A stretch of 35,649 nucleotides of DNA from Desulfobulbaceae bacterium (GTDB lineage: Bacteria; Desulfobacterota; Desulfobulbia; Desulfobulbales; Desulfocapsaceae), in contig QZLB01000291.1 in the NCBI GenBank assembly GCA_004796425.1, positions 1-35,649 of the forward strand, read 5' to 3'. Position 1 is the stretch's first letter. Each line of letters starts with the position of its first letter. Of this stretch, positions 21,026 to 26,789 are shown piece by piece. The notes under the pieces were generated by a model, which saw only the letters and a list, made by a program, of their open reading frames with translations, was not told where the DNA came from and did not search any database. Both the position numbers and the translations under genes were made by a program.

Positions 21026-22123
21026 CTATCTCTCTCCATTGGAATCGGGACTGTAGGGGTAAGAACCGAGCCATTCAAAATAGGAGCACAGTTCACGAAT
21101 CCTATCGCAACCGGTCTTGATATGCGATTCCTCTATGTGTCCGAGCATGTCTAAAAAGAACATGTACTTCCAATGTTTACCCTTGATTGGTCTTGATTCG
21201 ATCTTGGCAAGATTGATTGATTCTTCCGACAAAACGGTCAATATCTCGTTTAATGCACCCGGGCGATCCATAGTACCAATCAAGAGTGATGTCTTGTCTT
21301 CACCACTGAATTCGGGTGACTTCTGGCCAAGGACAAGGAATCGTGTAGTGTTTCCTCGATAATCCTCAATTCCTTTCACAACGACCTGGAGTTCATAAGT
21401 CTTTATTGCCAGAGAGGATGCGATGGCGCCGATATTAGGGTTATTTGCAGCCATCTGGGCAGCAGCTCCGGTCGAAAAAACGGGGAGTGTTGGTACCGAA
21501 GGCATGTTTTTTCTGAGCCAGTCCCGGCATTGCGCAAGCGGTTGGGCGTGGGAAGCTACCGTCTGGATGTCTTCTATGTTACCTGACCTGCATACAAGAT
21601 TATGGCTGATGCCTAATCTAACCTCACCACAGATCTGAACTTTATATTTCATAAAAGAATCAAGGGTAGAGAAGACAGCCCCCTCAATGGAATTTTCTAC
21701 TGGAACGATACCATAAGAAGTCCTACCCTTTTCTACCTCTGCAAACACATCATCTATTGACTCGAGAGCCTTGTACTCTGCAGAGTGACCGAAATAACTG
21801 ACACCAGCTAAATGGGTGAACGTCGCTTCCGGTCCGAGATAGGATACGATCTGTTTCTTCTGGGAAAGTCGACAGGTCGTAATAATTTCATGGAAAATTG
21901 AGCGAAGGGCGTTCTCAGGAAATATACCTTGGTTCAACTCCTGTAATCGCTCAAAAATTTGTCGCTCACGTAACGGATCCCATTTTGCGCGCTTGCTCTC
22001 GTCCTTGAGCTTGCCTATATCTTTAGCGCAGGTGATTCGTTTCTTGAGTAGCTCAAGAATACTGTTGTCAATTGTATCGATTTGGTCTCTTATATCAGGT
22101 ATTGTCGTCTTTTCGGTGGTCAT
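21026..22123 (-). CDS. pheA: Bifunctional chorismate mutase / prephenate dehydratase
   Basis: Converts chorismate to prephenate and then to phenylpyruvate for phenylalanine synthesis. In the 365-residue protein, residues about 8-90 are an AroQ chorismate mutase (IRDQIDTIDNSILELLKKR, DPLRERQIFERL), about 92-265 the prephenate dehydratase (SYLGPEATFTHLA, PVENSIEGAV, SHAQPLAQC, and the catalytic NTTRFLVLG), and about 278-355 an ACT domain with PGALNEIL and ESRP, the motifs that bind phenylalanine for feedback inhibition. I chose the ATG at 22123; the frame stays open 27 codons further upstream, but that extension has no family similarity. Confidence 0.96.
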   Translation of the reverse strand: MTTEKTTIPDIRDQIDTIDNSILELLKKRITCAKDIGKLKDESKRAKWDPLRERQIFERLQELNQGIFPENALRSIFHEIITTCRLSQKKQIVSYLGPEATFTHLAGVSYFGHSAEYKALESIDDVFAEVEKGRTSYGIVPVENSIEGAVFSTLDSFMKYKVQICGEVRLGISHNLVCRSGNIEDIQTVASHAQPLAQCRDWLRKNMPSVPTLPVFSTGAAAQMAANNPNIGAIASSLAIKTYELQVVVKGIEDYRGNTTRFLVLGQKSPEFSGEDKTSLLIGTMDRPGALNEILTVLSEESINLAKIESRPIKGKHWKYMFFLDMLGHIEESHIKTGCDRIRELCSYFEWLGSYPYSPDSNGER

Positions 22124-22293: not shown

Positions 22294-23469
22294 ATGGACC
22301 AGATAAATAACATCCGTACTTATGATGAAATAAACCAAAAGATCAAAGCTGGCAATGCAGTTATCGTGACTGCTGAAGAGATGGTTTCAATCGTCAGGGA
22401 CAAAGGTGTTGAAAAAGCTGCCAAGCACGTAGACGTGGTTACCACGGGCACCTTTGCCCCGATGTGTTCATCTGGTGCGTTTCTCAATATTGGCCAGATG
22501 ATACCAACCATTAAAACCTCTAAGGTATGGTTTAATAAAGTACCTGCGTATGGCGGACTGGCTGCGGTAGATGCATACCTGGGAGCTACAGAACCATCTG
22601 AGGATGATCCCCTTAACAAGGTTTATCCTGGTGAATTCAAATACGGGGGTGGGCATGTAATCGAGGATCTTTTGCGAGGCAAGCCAATACTTCTTGAAGC
22701 CAAAGCTTATGGCACTGATTGCTATGCCGCTCGAAAACTTAAGAAGGAAATCACTCTTGAAGATCTTCCCTATGCTTTGTTATGCAATCCACGGAATGGA
22801 TATCAGAACTATAATTGTGCCGTGAACCGAACTGAACGAACAGTCTACACCTATATGGGAATGCTCAAGGCGGGGTTAAGAAATGCCACCTATTGCAGTG
22901 CCGGTGAGTTAAGCCCTTTATTTAATGATCCGTTCTATAAAACAATTGGGATTGGAACCCGAATTTTCCTCGGAGGTGCGCAAGGATACGTAACCTGGCA
23001 CGGGACCCAGCATAGGCCAAATGTGCAGCGGTCTGATAGGGGAGTTCCGCTTACTCCTTCTGGAACCTTAATGGTACAGGGGGACCTCAAAGAGATGAGT
23101 CATGATTGGGTAAAAGGCGTTTCTATCTTAGGTTATGGAAATTCACTCGCGGTAGGTCTTGGCATACCTATACCAATCTTATCATTGGAAATTGCCGAAT
23201 CGACAGGTATTGGAGATGAGGAGCTCTTTACCCAGGTAGTCGATTATGGCCATGATTATACCAATGGTGTATCAGACCCACTTGCCCAGGTGAGTTATGC
23301 TGAGCTAAAAAGCGGTAGCATTGAAATTGAAGGAAAACAGATTAAAACTGCACCATTATCAAGTGTGGTAAAAGCTCGTCAAATAGCAGAAATACTGAAG
23401 AAAGATATAGAAAACGGCACTTTTCAGTTGAGTGAGCCTGTCAAATTGATACCGGGCCCAAATCAGTAA
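22294..23469 (+). CDS. COG1900/DUF39 homocysteine biosynthesis protein
   Basis: Member of the family shown in methanogens and sulfate reducers to make homocysteine from aspartate semialdehyde and a sulfur donor, without acyl-homoserine intermediates. The 391-residue sequence has TTGTFAPMCSSGAFLNIGQ, GATEPSEDDPLNKVYPGEF, YGGGHVIEDLLRGK, AKAYGTDCYAARK and GGAQGYVTWHGTQHRP. Cys58 and Cys143 are candidates for the two conserved cysteines reported to matter in archaeal members. There is no CBS or ferredoxin domain, and no NIL/ferredoxin partner gene in the window. The ATG at 22294 is preferred over an in-frame TTG at 22279. It ends one base before the LarE-like gene, implying shared function or coupling. 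Confidence 0.9.
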   Translation: MDQINNIRTYDEINQKIKAGNAVIVTAEEMVSIVRDKGVEKAAKHVDVVTTGTFAPMCSSGAFLNIGQMIPTIKTSKVWFNKVPAYGGLAAVDAYLGATEPSEDDPLNKVYPGEFKYGGGHVIEDLLRGKPILLEAKAYGTDCYAARKLKKEITLEDLPYALLCNPRNGYQNYNCAVNRTERTVYTYMGMLKAGLRNATYCSAGELSPLFNDPFYKTIGIGTRIFLGGAQGYVTWHGTQHRPNVQRSDRGVPLTPSGTLMVQGDLKEMSHDWVKGVSILGYGNSLAVGLGIPIPILSLEIAESTGIGDEELFTQVVDYGHDYTNGVSDPLAQVSYAELKSGSIEIEGKQIKTAPLSSVVKARQIAEILKKDIENGTFQLSEPVKLIPGPNQ

Positions 23470-23470
23470 G

Positions 23471-24265
23471 ATGACAGCAGTGAAAGACATTGAGCAAAAG
23501 CTGACGCGAGAAATTGAACAGTATGATCGTTTAGCTATCGCGTTTTCAGGTGGGGTTGACTCAACATTGCTCCTTTACGTGGCCTGTAAAACGCTCGGCT
23601 ACCAAAATGTAGTCGCAGTTTTTGCTGACTCTGTTTTTCAGTCAGCAAAAAGCAGGGCAGGGGTCAATACAACCATTCTTGAACAGTTCAATGAACAATT
23701 GAAGCTTATCAGGATATCTATCGATCCGTTTAAAAGTGATGAAATCATCAATAACGATAAAAATCGCTGTTACTTCTGTAAAAAATTGATTTACCAGACA
23801 ATACTGGCAAAACTTAAGGAACTGAATTTTACGGTTCTGGCTGACGGAACGAATTGTTCCGACCTGGAGCTCAACCGCCCCGGCATTAAGGCGATAGAAG
23901 AGCTGCAAATTAAAACTCCGTATGTTAATGGAGGTCTTTCTAAGCGAGATATTAGGGTGCTTGCGAGACATTACAATCTCCCACAGGCTACATTACCATC
24001 GAACTCATGTCTGGCTGCCAGAACGGAAACAGGAAGACCACTGGAGTTGAAGATGTTGGAAGAAATTGAAGATTCGGAATTATACCTTGCGAGTTTAGGG
24101 TTTGTAATATTTCGAGTGAAACCCCGCGGTACAAAGATCTTTATTGAGCTTGGTGAAAATGATTTTACCAGATTAAACAACCCCCGGATTCGAGAGAAAA
24201 TTATCTCCTATTTTCAATCACATAATAAAGATTCCATTTTCCTTGATTTAAGTCCAAGAAGTTAA
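23471..24265 (+). CDS. LarE-like ATP-dependent sulfur transferase (PP-loop family)
   Basis: A 264-residue member of the adenine-nucleotide alpha hydrolase superfamily. The PP-loop SGGVDS lies at 26-31 and the LarE-type strings RCYFCKKLIY, ADGTN and LPSNSCLAARTETG follow. LarE normally sulfurates the pyridinium dithioacid mononucleotide that becomes the nickel-pincer cofactor; Cys180 sits at the position of the sacrificial cysteine (Cys176 in Lactobacillus plantarum). Cys100 and Cys103 form a CxxC, so a three-cysteine Fe-S variant is possible. No larA, larB or larC is in the window. The start is one base after the COG1900 stop codon, so a role as sulfur donor for homocysteine synthesis is an alternative to cofactor synthesis. 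Confidence 0.85.
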   Translation: MTAVKDIEQKLTREIEQYDRLAIAFSGGVDSTLLLYVACKTLGYQNVVAVFADSVFQSAKSRAGVNTTILEQFNEQLKLIRISIDPFKSDEIINNDKNRCYFCKKLIYQTILAKLKELNFTVLADGTNCSDLELNRPGIKAIEELQIKTPYVNGGLSKRDIRVLARHYNLPQATLPSNSCLAARTETGRPLELKMLEEIEDSELYLASLGFVIFRVKPRGTKIFIELGENDFTRLNNPRIREKIISYFQSHNKDSIFLDLSPRS

Positions 24266-24462: not shown

Positions 24463-24527
24463 ATCAATTCTAGGAGAAAGGGAACAGGGTCTAATAACCT
24501 GTTACAGAGAAAAGAAATGAATGAGCA

Positions 24528-24533
24528 GGGAGG
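24528..24533 (+). promoter_or_regulatory. Ribosome binding site deciding the HU start
   Basis: GGGAGG five bases before the ATG at 24539. It argues against the in-frame ATG six codons upstream at 24521, which would put this site inside the coding region. Confidence 0.85.
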
Positions 24534-24538
24534 AATTC

Positions 24539-24811
24539 ATGAACAAGAAGGAACTGATTGAAAGCATCGCAGGAGCAGCAGACATTAGTAAAGCAGCAGC
24601 AGAAAAAGCACTCAATGGCACGCTTGCGGCAATCGCAGATGCACTTAAGAAAGGTGACAAAGTAACCCTCGTTGGTTTTGGAACCTTCTCAGTATCAAAG
24701 CGTGAAGCACGCACCGGTCGTAATCCTCAGACTGGAAAATCAATCAAAATTCCAGCCAAAAACGTTGCAAAGTTCAAAGCTGGTAGCAAACTTTCTGACG
24801 CTATCAACTAG
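24539..24811 (+). CDS. HU-family DNA-binding protein
   Basis: Histone-like nucleoid protein of 90 residues, the standard length. It shows [20 protein letters not shown], the [22 protein letters not shown] arm region with the DNA-intercalating proline (residues about 47-68), and the closing [18 protein letters not shown]. Start at 24539 gives the exact HU N-terminus. It is followed after 60 bases by tRNA-Pro with no terminator between them, so both may lie on one transcript. Confidence 0.96.
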
Positions 24812-24871: not shown

Positions 24872-24948
24872 CGGGACGTGGCTCAGTCTGGTAGAGCACA
24901 GCGTTCGGGACGCTGGGGTCGGAGGTTCAAATCCTCTCGTCCCGACCA
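24872..24948 (+). tRNA. tRNA-Pro (anticodon CGG)
   Basis: A 77-nt cloverleaf: acceptor arms CGGGACG (24872-24878) and CGTCCCG (24938-24944), D-arm starting GCTC...GAGC, anticodon stem CAGCG/CGCTG with loop TTCGGGA (anticodon CGG at 24906-24908, reads CCG), T-arm GGAGGTTCAAATCCTCT, discriminator A and an encoded CCA end. Confidence 0.96.
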
Positions 24949-25199: not shown

Positions 25200-26789
25200 A
25201 TGATAACTCTTCTTGACTATGGTGCTGGCAATGTACGAAGTGTGAGAAACGCTATACGAACGCTTGGCTATGAAGTGATCGATGCGAAAAGCAGCGCTGA
25301 TATCCTGGTCGCAGATAAACTAATTTTTCCAGGTGTTGGCAGTTTTGGTTCGGTTATGAATCAGTTACGGAAGGATGGATTTGATCAGGCTTTGAAACAG
25401 AGAATTTCCCAAAACAAACCATTTCTCGGTATATGTGTCGCCCTGCAGGCATTTTTTGACGGCAGTGAAGAATCACCGGGAGTAGAGGGACTCGGGATTA
25501 TACCAGGCATGGTAAGACGATTTCCTGAATCAGCAGGTGCTGTTCCCCAAATAGGCTGGAATGATTTGAAACTTGTTTCAGACTGTTCTCTGTTTAAAAA
25601 GTACAACCAGGAGAAAATGTACTTTGTCCATTCCTATTACGCTGAAAAGCGCAATGTCTCTGACGAGTGGCTTGTTGCAACAACAGATTACGGTCATGAA
25701 TTCGTCTCAGGTATCTGTCGGGGAAATATCGCTGCCCTTCAGTTTCATCCTGAAAAAAGTGGTCAAGCCGGTTTGAATATTCTGCACAATTTTCTCAAAA
25801 GTGATGAAATAACAGTTTCAAAACGACCACAAAAAGATAGCCAGAAAAAAACATCCCTTGGAAAACGTATTATTGCCTGTCTCGATGTCCGAAGTAATGA
25901 TAATGGAGATCTAGTGGTAACAAAGGGAGATCAATATGATGTAAGGGAGTCAGGAGAAGTCAGAAATCTTGGCAAACCGGTGGAACTTGCAAAAAGATAT
26001 TTTGATGAAGGGGCAGACGAGATTACCTTCCTGAATATAACAGCATTCCGTGATTTTCCACTGTCGGATCAGCCGATGCTTGAAGTACTGAAACAGTCAT
26101 CTGAAAATGTTTTTGTACCATTGACCATCGGCGGAGGGATACGGGAATTTACTGATTCCGATGGTCGCTATTACTCTGCACTAGACGTTGCCTCAGAGTA
26201 TTTTCGCTCAGGGGCTGACAAAATTTCCATTGGCAGTGATGCTGTAACCACGGTTGAAATGGTTCTTGAGTCCGGGAAAAAAGATGGCTCCAGTTCAATC
26301 GAGCAGATTTCCCATGTATATGGAGCACAAGCGGTTGTCATATCAGTTGATCCAAGAAGGGTGTATGTCAACTCACCAGATGAGACGGTACATCAGGTTA
26401 TAGAAACTGAATTTCCCGGTCCAAACGGTGAAAAGTATTGCTGGTATCAATGCACCGTGAAAGGTGGAAGAGAGGGTCGTGATGTTGATGTGATACAATT
26501 GGTGACGATCTGTGAATCCCTTGGGGCGGGTGAAATTTTGCTCAACTGCATTGACCGTGATGGTACCAACTCGGGTTTTGATATCGAACTGGTCAATCAC
26601 GTAAAATCTGCAGTTTCAATTCCGGTTATTGCTTCCAGTGGAGCTGGTAAACCGGATCACTTCAGTGAAGTATTTCTCAAAACAGATACTGATGCTGCAC
26701 TTGCTGCAGGGATCTTTCATAGAAAAGAAGTTGAAATCGCCGAGGTGAAGCAGGAGATTGCTTCCCACAACATACCGGTGAGAAAATGA
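25200..26789 (+). CDS. hisHF: Fused imidazole glycerol phosphate synthase HisH-HisF, eukaryote-like
   Basis: One 529-residue protein holding both halves of imidazole glycerol phosphate synthase (histidine synthesis, branch to AICAR). Residues 1-200 are the glutaminase HisH: GAGN start, nucleophile Cys79 in LGICVALQ, and His183/Glu185 in QFHPEKSG. After a lysine-rich linker (about 201-219) comes the HisF barrel, with Asp229 (ACLDV) and Asp384 (VSVDP) at the catalytic positions. The HisF half is about 310 residues instead of the usual 250-256: extra segments around 232-258 (NDNGDLVVTKGDQYDVRE), 318-326 and 390-418 (with PGPNGEKYCWYQCT) are those of the yeast HIS7 and plant enzymes, not of ordinary bacterial HisF. 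No other his gene is nearby. It runs tail-to-tail, without a gap, into the lipoprotein gene. Confidence 0.95.
   Translation: MITLLDYGAGNVRSVRNAIRTLGYEVIDAKSSADILVADKLIFPGVGSFGSVMNQLRKDGFDQALKQRISQNKPFLGICVALQAFFDGSEESPGVEGLGIIPGMVRRFPESAGAVPQIGWNDLKLVSDCSLFKKYNQEKMYFVHSYYAEKRNVSDEWLVATTDYGHEFVSGICRGNIAALQFHPEKSGQAGLNILHNFLKSDEITVSKRPQKDSQKKTSLGKRIIACLDVRSNDNGDLVVTKGDQYDVRESGEVRNLGKPVELAKRYFDEGADEITFLNITAFRDFPLSDQPMLEVLKQSSENVFVPLTIGGGIREFTDSDGRYYSALDVASEYFRSGADKISIGSDAVTTVEMVLESGKKDGSSSIEQISHVYGAQAVVISVDPRRVYVNSPDETVHQVIETEFPGPNGEKYCWYQCTVKGGREGRDVDVIQLVTICESLGAGEILLNCIDRDGTNSGFDIELVNHVKSAVSIPVIASSGAGKPDHFSEVFLKTDTDAALAAGIFHRKEVEIAEVKQEIASHNIPVRK

Follow-up and report, generated by a model that had tools for sequence, protein, structure and literature searches.

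The locus analysed here raises the question why a gene of homocysteine synthesis should stand one base away from a gene of nickel-pincer nucleotide (NPN) synthesis. It lies in a stretch of 35,649 nucleotides from a Desulfobulbaceae bacterium (the window, by which we mean the whole stretch of DNA analysed), where a gene for a COG1900 protein, HcyBio, is followed on the same strand by a gene for a LarE (Table 1). A preliminary description of this DNA had proposed that LarE supplies the sulfur for homocysteine or, more widely, that the pair takes part in another sulfur transfer route.

The gene pair and its surroundings

Both open reading frames are intact and start with ATG (positions 22294 and 23471); an in-frame TTG (22279) lies 5' of the HcyBio start. 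The genes are separated by a single base, 23470, just as had been described before. Such a gap suggests, as far as a sequence can, that the two are translationally coupled, and we infer that they are transcribed together. A search for a riboswitch, promoter or regulatory site upstream of the pair found none. The divergently oriented gene for chorismate mutase/prephenate dehydratase anchors the locus across the order, even where HcyBio is gone. The gene order HcyBio-LarE-HU is seen again in other families (loci L055, L067, L070, L373, L376), and the HU gene is probably an incidental neighbour. A tRNA gene (24872-24945) is found 3' of the HU gene, and positions 25200-26789 hold a HisH-HisF fusion, with glutamine amidotransferase and His_biosynth domains in one 529-aa open reading frame.

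Table 1. Positions in the window of the paired genes, of selected residues of their products and of the adjoining genes.
Feature	Position	Strand	Remark
Chorismate mutase/prephenate dehydratase (pheA), divergent neighbour	21026..22123	-	locus anchor in the order
HcyBio / COG1900a, L-aspartate semialdehyde sulfurtransferase (L-ASST), 391 aa	22294..23469	+	PF01837 match
Codon of HcyBio Cys58	22465..22467	+	invariant; matches essential Cys54 of MA1821 by conservation
Codon of HcyBio Cys143	22720..22722	+	95% conserved; matches non-essential Cys131 of MA1821 by conservation
LarE, [4Fe-4S]-type ATP-dependent sulfur insertase, 264 aa	23471..24265	+	TIGR00268 match, AlphaFold model
PP-loop SGGVDS, LarE residues 26-31	23546..23563	+	sequence
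CxxC, LarE Cys100 and Cys103	23768..23779	+	sequence
CLAAR, LarE Cys180 to Arg184	24008..24022	+	canonical CL[AS]SR; most paired LarEs CLATR
RVK, LarE residues 215-217	24113..24121	+	canonical RVR = Arg212/Arg214 of L. plantarum LarE
HU DNA-binding protein, downstream of LarE	24521..24811	+	gap of about 255 nt

HcyBio and its partners

HcyBio matches profile PF01837 over all of its 349 positions (506 bits, cut-off 26); the COG1900 domain is full-length and has no ferredoxin insert. The coenzyme M synthase MMP16/ComF (TIGR03287) was rejected as an identity, the score being 118.4 bits against a cut-off of 363.95. The only conserved cysteines are Cys58, which is invariant in two alignments (A1 and A2) and in all 79 sequences of a further comparison, and Cys143. 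Both were equated with Cys54 and Cys131 of the Methanosarcina enzyme MA1821 (PMC12068725) by conservation, MA1821 itself not being in the alignment. The structure of HcyBio is predicted with confidence (pLDDT 90). The best match of the model in the PDB has a Z of 2.9 over 68 residues, and Foldseek gave no match under E 0.001, so that there is no structural hint of a kinship to LarA or NPN binders; the lack of a PDB match excludes nothing, however.

In Desulfovibrio vulgaris HcyBio (DUF39), a NIL/ferredoxin and COG2122 are all three needed for homocysteine (PMC5764234). Counterparts of all three are present in the genome of the window, with one NIL/ferredoxin (C80:10855-11058, NIL and Fer4 domains) and one COG2122 protein (C193:4426-5163, 265.5 bits, slightly below the cut-off of 271). 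In this genome LarB is encoded divergently beside the NIL/ferredoxin, at a distance of 157 bp (L073:4881-6290). The arrangement was considered as a second link between the two pathways and dropped, since in three other genomes (G145, G195, G022) LarB seemingly adjoins an RsmE-like gene instead; it is probably accidental.

LarE and the lar genes

The second protein matches the LarE family TIGR00268 from residue 8 to 261 (219.3 bits, cut-off 150), and its AlphaFold model (pLDDT 95) superimposes on the LarE from Methanococcus maripaludis (8cnz) with Z 27.5 over 253 residues (rmsd 2.6) and on 5udt with Z 27.4. The two identities given in the preliminary description, COG1900 and LarE-like, are thus borne out, and the PP-loop, the CxxC at 100/103 and Cys180 are all where it had placed them. 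That the three cysteines point to a LarE of the [4Fe-4S] type also stands, but their weight for the pairing had been overrated: they occur in 213 of 215 LarEs of the phylum, paired and unpaired alike, and are therefore no hallmark of a paired LarE. Most LarE homologs indeed carry the CXXC-C motif; the [4Fe-4S] cluster that it holds leaves one iron site free to take up an additional sulfide (PMC9283937). Judged from the motif, the cysteines probably indicate how this LarE works and not that it serves HcyBio. A scan of viral contigs for LarE found no relative.

The phosphate of the LarE substrate has as proposed ligands Ser180, Arg212 and Arg214 in the enzyme from Lactobacillus plantarum (PMC9283937). 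The LarE of the window has Ala183, Arg215 and Lys217 at these positions. With two of the three changed, P2CMN is less well supported as the substrate, whereas the assignment as LarE is unaffected.

This is the only LarE of the genome, which also encodes LarB (C80:9892-10521, 289.7 bits) and LarC (C204:16260-17384, 447 bits) in single copy and four LarA homologs (on C180, C26, C196 and C93). By homology the genome thus has every step of NPN synthesis as well as LarA proteins that might use the cofactor, and the pathway needs this LarE because there is no other. The preliminary description would have found it unfavourable to its proposal if the genome held larA, larB and larC and if the pairing was not conserved. 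The three genes are there; the pairing is conserved nonetheless.

Conservation of the pairing

The nearest named relatives of the window's order are the Desulfobulbales, a lineage of sulfate reducers. Within this order HcyBio and LarE form a direct pair in 87 of the 104 genomes bearing HcyBio, named carriers being Desulfopila aestuarii and Desulfofustis glycolicus. In a sample of the phylum (198 genomes, HcyBio in 133 and LarE in 171) LarE lies directly 3' of HcyBio on the same strand in 27 of the 133, which belong to 14 family codes. It should be noted that there is one genome per species, that the genomes are partly incomplete and that uncorrected statistics overstate the independence of such counts. 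In a tree built from 161 LarEs, 9 changes suffice to explain the pairing, compared with 25 when the labels are shuffled; it is therefore mainly inherited and clustered. The coupling, as had been supposed, is conserved; it is real, old and far beyond chance. In the literature searched no mention of an association of HcyBio with LarE was found.

The surroundings of HcyBio vary. In further genomes a few kilobases separate LarE from HcyBio, for example in family f11, in which a five-gene cluster of HcyBio, NIL/ferredoxin, MnmA, LarE and a PP-loop protein (ThiI/MnmA-like) was seen (L077:1101-5656, L078:7437-12262). HcyBio adjoins MnmA or a PP-loop/NFACT-R protein in families f10, f11, f16, f40, f48, f54, f66 and f73, at no fewer than 18 of 144 loci by motif count. 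These sulfur-transferase-like neighbours with an SGGxDS motif fit a general sulfur-insertion neighbourhood around HcyBio. The PP-loop protein with an NFACT-R-like C-terminus follows HcyBio-LarE or is near it in f10, f40, f54, f66 and f73 (L056:2497-3489, L063:6043-7047 and similar); its NCBIfam matches are weak only (NF006222, ThiI, MnmA). A stand-alone protein of about 200 aa with two CBS domains is encoded directly or closely 5' of HcyBio at a number of loci (L033-L037, L042, L048, L055, L067, L070, L361-L363, L365) and probably corresponds, as a protein of its own, to the CBS domain that is fused to MA1821.

A possible reason for the pairing

The explanation that we prefer, and that has in our estimate an even chance of being right, is an operon of two genes whose enzymes both consume sulfide and are co-expressed but not chained. 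HcyBio would be the catalytic subunit of the anaerobic enzyme L-ASST and, with the NIL/ferredoxin and COG2122 proteins encoded elsewhere in the genome, would make homocysteine from aspartate semialdehyde and sulfide. LarE would act as the [4Fe-4S] sulfur insertase of the NPN pathway, adenylylating the LarB product and transferring cluster-bound sulfide, and nickel would be inserted by LarC after this step. Since both enzymes would work on sulfide, they may be expressed together for the sake of a shared regulation or a shared local supply. The NPN formed could serve the four LarA homologs in the genome of the window; in most relatives, which have no LarA, it would have to serve another protein.

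That LarE is still tied to the NPN pathway follows from the retention of LarC in 27 of 27 and of LarB in 26 of 27 paired genomes. Four points count against this explanation. Upstream of the pair there is neither a regulatory site nor a riboswitch that could be found. LarA was found in no more than 10 of the 116 genomes of the order, which leaves the purpose of NPN there unexplained. The substrate of LarE may be unusual because two of three phosphate ligands are changed in the window and because the HcyBio-linked LarEs of families f32 and f68 lack the segment on which two of the ligands lie. And because the pairing is mostly inherited, few independent events back this explanation.

Does LarE supply sulfur for homocysteine?

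LarE could, with ATP and a [4Fe-5S] cluster, give sulfide or activated sulfur to Cys58 of HcyBio, alone or besides its work for NPN. We regard this as unlikely, although the linkage is very tight in the order and although the substrate ligands are eroded in linked LarEs, including forms that lack the C-terminal segment. LarEs with Thr at the position of Ser180 are also commoner in genomes with HcyBio (54 of 61 versus 51 of 96, p = 4e-6), but this is a raw comparison uncorrected for ancestry; with independent pairs it is not significant, and Thr-type LarE was rejected as a marker of HcyBio genomes.

Against a donor role speaks first that the known partners are kept. COG2122, the published candidate for a role in sulfur delivery, is missing from none of the 27 paired genomes (four weak matches are omitted from these counts on purpose), and a NIL domain is matched in 26 of the 27, which rules out LarE as a replacement for either. 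Paired genomes also keep LarB and LarC, both of which would be unneeded if LarE worked solely for HcyBio.

Secondly, the modules are separable. Of the 133 genomes with HcyBio, 19 have no LarE; at least 11 of these 19, several of them single-contig, are devoid of any lar gene. At four of the lar-less loci that were examined the gene order is CBS-HcyBio. The HcyBio of such genomes cannot be told from the others by its residues: comparison of lar-bearing with lar-less genomes gave nothing beyond conservative hydrophobic changes and D264N. Conversely, 57 of 171 LarE genomes have no L-ASST. In genus g5 of the window's order HcyBio was lost and LarE remains. For example, in its member G195 (L367:3268-4676) CBS-LarE stands without HcyBio at the syntenic locus next to tsaD and pheA, and in this single-contig genome HcyBio, NIL and COG2122 are all absent while LarB, LarC and LarE remain. 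From the lar-less genomes and from g5 it follows that each module can exist without the other. A dependence of LarE presence on HcyBio has no support in the phylum as a whole (LarE in 114 of 133 versus 57 of 65 genomes, p = 0.83); within the order the two are associated (101/3/5/7, p = 2e-6), a result confounded by incomplete genomes and physical adjacency. The proposal that LarE is the sulfur source for homocysteine is thus not supported, this being moreover the only LarE of the genome, and LarE is probably not the sulfur donor of HcyBio. The wider alternative, some other sulfur transfer route, may still describe what the pair serves.

Has the substrate of LarE changed?

The linked LarE might instead thiolate another small molecule or a protein carboxylate, neither the LarB product nor HcyBio; we think this improbable to about the same degree as sulfur donation to HcyBio. 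Where L. plantarum LarE has Ser180, almost every paired LarE has Thr, and that of the window has Ala. At the position of Arg214 the order has Lys, Thr, Gly or His in 8 of 58 LarEs, compared with 1 of 149 elsewhere. Paired LarEs in f32 and f68 are only 196-207 residues long and end before the arginine segment (L055:5388-5987, L067:5699-6289, L070:3804-4427); they retain all three cysteines, and downstream of them no remnant of the C-terminal substrate-binding segment was found in any frame. Going by these residues, the departures in the order, f32 and f68 may reflect either a relaxed constraint or a changed substrate. Less favourable to a new substrate is that the structurally characterised LarE of M. 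maripaludis belongs to the Thr type (judged from its CMATR motif), that this type is present in LarA-bearing genomes (29 of 61) and that LarB and LarC are kept.

NPN synthesis without LarA

Of the 116 genomes of the order, 106 have LarE, and LarB and LarC are present in all eight members of the order in the phylum sample. To our knowledge LarA is the only enzyme family that uses NPN, and as it is missing from 106 of the 116 genomes a client of the Lar pathway other than LarA is likely. LarB, LarC and LarE without LarA have been reported for about 15% of the genomes surveyed, notably from cyanobacteria, and a non-LarA NPN protein has been predicted to exist (PMC11796402).

Could HcyBio be this client? 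HcyBio itself or a partner protein would use NPN to relay hydride from ferredoxin to a thioaldehyde intermediate in NPN makers that have no LarA. The clusters LarB-CBS-HcyBio-LarE in four genomes (G029, G066, G156, G181) agree with the idea, and so does the predicted non-LarA protein. Two of the control genomes, Synechococcus elongatus and Methanocaldococcus jannaschii, combine HcyBio with LarB, LarC and LarE and gave no LarA match. LarA is, besides being rare in the order, missing more often from paired genomes (20 of 27) than from unpaired ones with HcyBio and LarBCE (24 of 81; p = 8e-5). On the LarE tree, however, this last association comes down to about one well-supported independent contrast, too few for a general rule, and it may go back to one or a few ancestral events. 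Phylum-wide, HcyBio and LarBCE do not co-occur above expectation. The HcyBio proteins of lar-less genomes share all the conserved Cys, Lys and His residues, and 18 genomes with LarBCE, including G195, have neither LarA nor HcyBio. For these two reasons HcyBio is not a general NPN client, and the universal missing client it cannot be. Its use of NPN in LarA-less organisms we consider slightly less probable still than the two preceding alternatives. The same low expectation applies to L-ASST as a non-LarA client of the Lar pathway where LarBCE persist without LarA, whether as an NPN-bearing enzyme or with a component modified by LarE; this would be an accessory which the lar-less homologs do without.

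Comparison with known systems

The L-ASST systems MA1821/MA1822 from Methanosarcina acetivorans and DUF39, NIL/ferredoxin and COG2122 from D. vulgaris Miyazaki (PMC5764234, PMC12068725) resemble that of the window in the full-length COG1900 domain, in the conserved counterparts of Cys58 and Cys143 and in the presence of NIL/ferredoxin and COG2122 in the genome. Unlike in those systems, HcyBio is here in a predicted operon with LarE, and NIL/ferredoxin and COG2122 are unlinked (on C80 and C193). MA1821 has a fused CBS domain, many relatives of the window have a separate CBS gene next to HcyBio, and the window locus has neither.

With the [4Fe-4S] LarEs from Thermotoga maritima (PMC9283937) and M. 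maripaludis (8cnz/8cp4) the LarE of the window shares SGGxDS, CXXC-C and the fold over the whole length. It differs from them in being linked to homocysteine synthesis rather than to larA, larB or larC, and in having Ala and Lys for Ser180 and Arg214 (L. plantarum numbering). The sacrificial LarE of L. plantarum has the fold (Z about 27), the PP-loop and the family TIGR00268 in common with it; that enzyme has no CXXC-C and sacrifices the sulfur of its own Cys176, whereas the LarE of the window is of the three-cysteine type. Most paired relatives are like the systems with LarB, LarC and LarE but without LarA (PMC11796402), except that larE here shares a predicted operon with the gene of a named metabolic enzyme; the genome of the window itself has LarA homologs.

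Significance

It has been published that the nickel-pincer cofactor is made by many microbes in which no enzyme using it is known (PMC11796402). Here an entire bacterial order shows this LarA-less pattern, and the gene for the sulfur-insertion step of the pathway is held next to one with a named role in metabolism. The locus offers HcyBio, NIL/ferredoxin and the CBS protein as candidates for the NPN client, and with D. aestuarii and D. glycolicus there are culturable carriers of the pair in which the candidates can be tested. The predicted HcyBio-LarE operon is a concrete lead on NPN synthesis without LarA.
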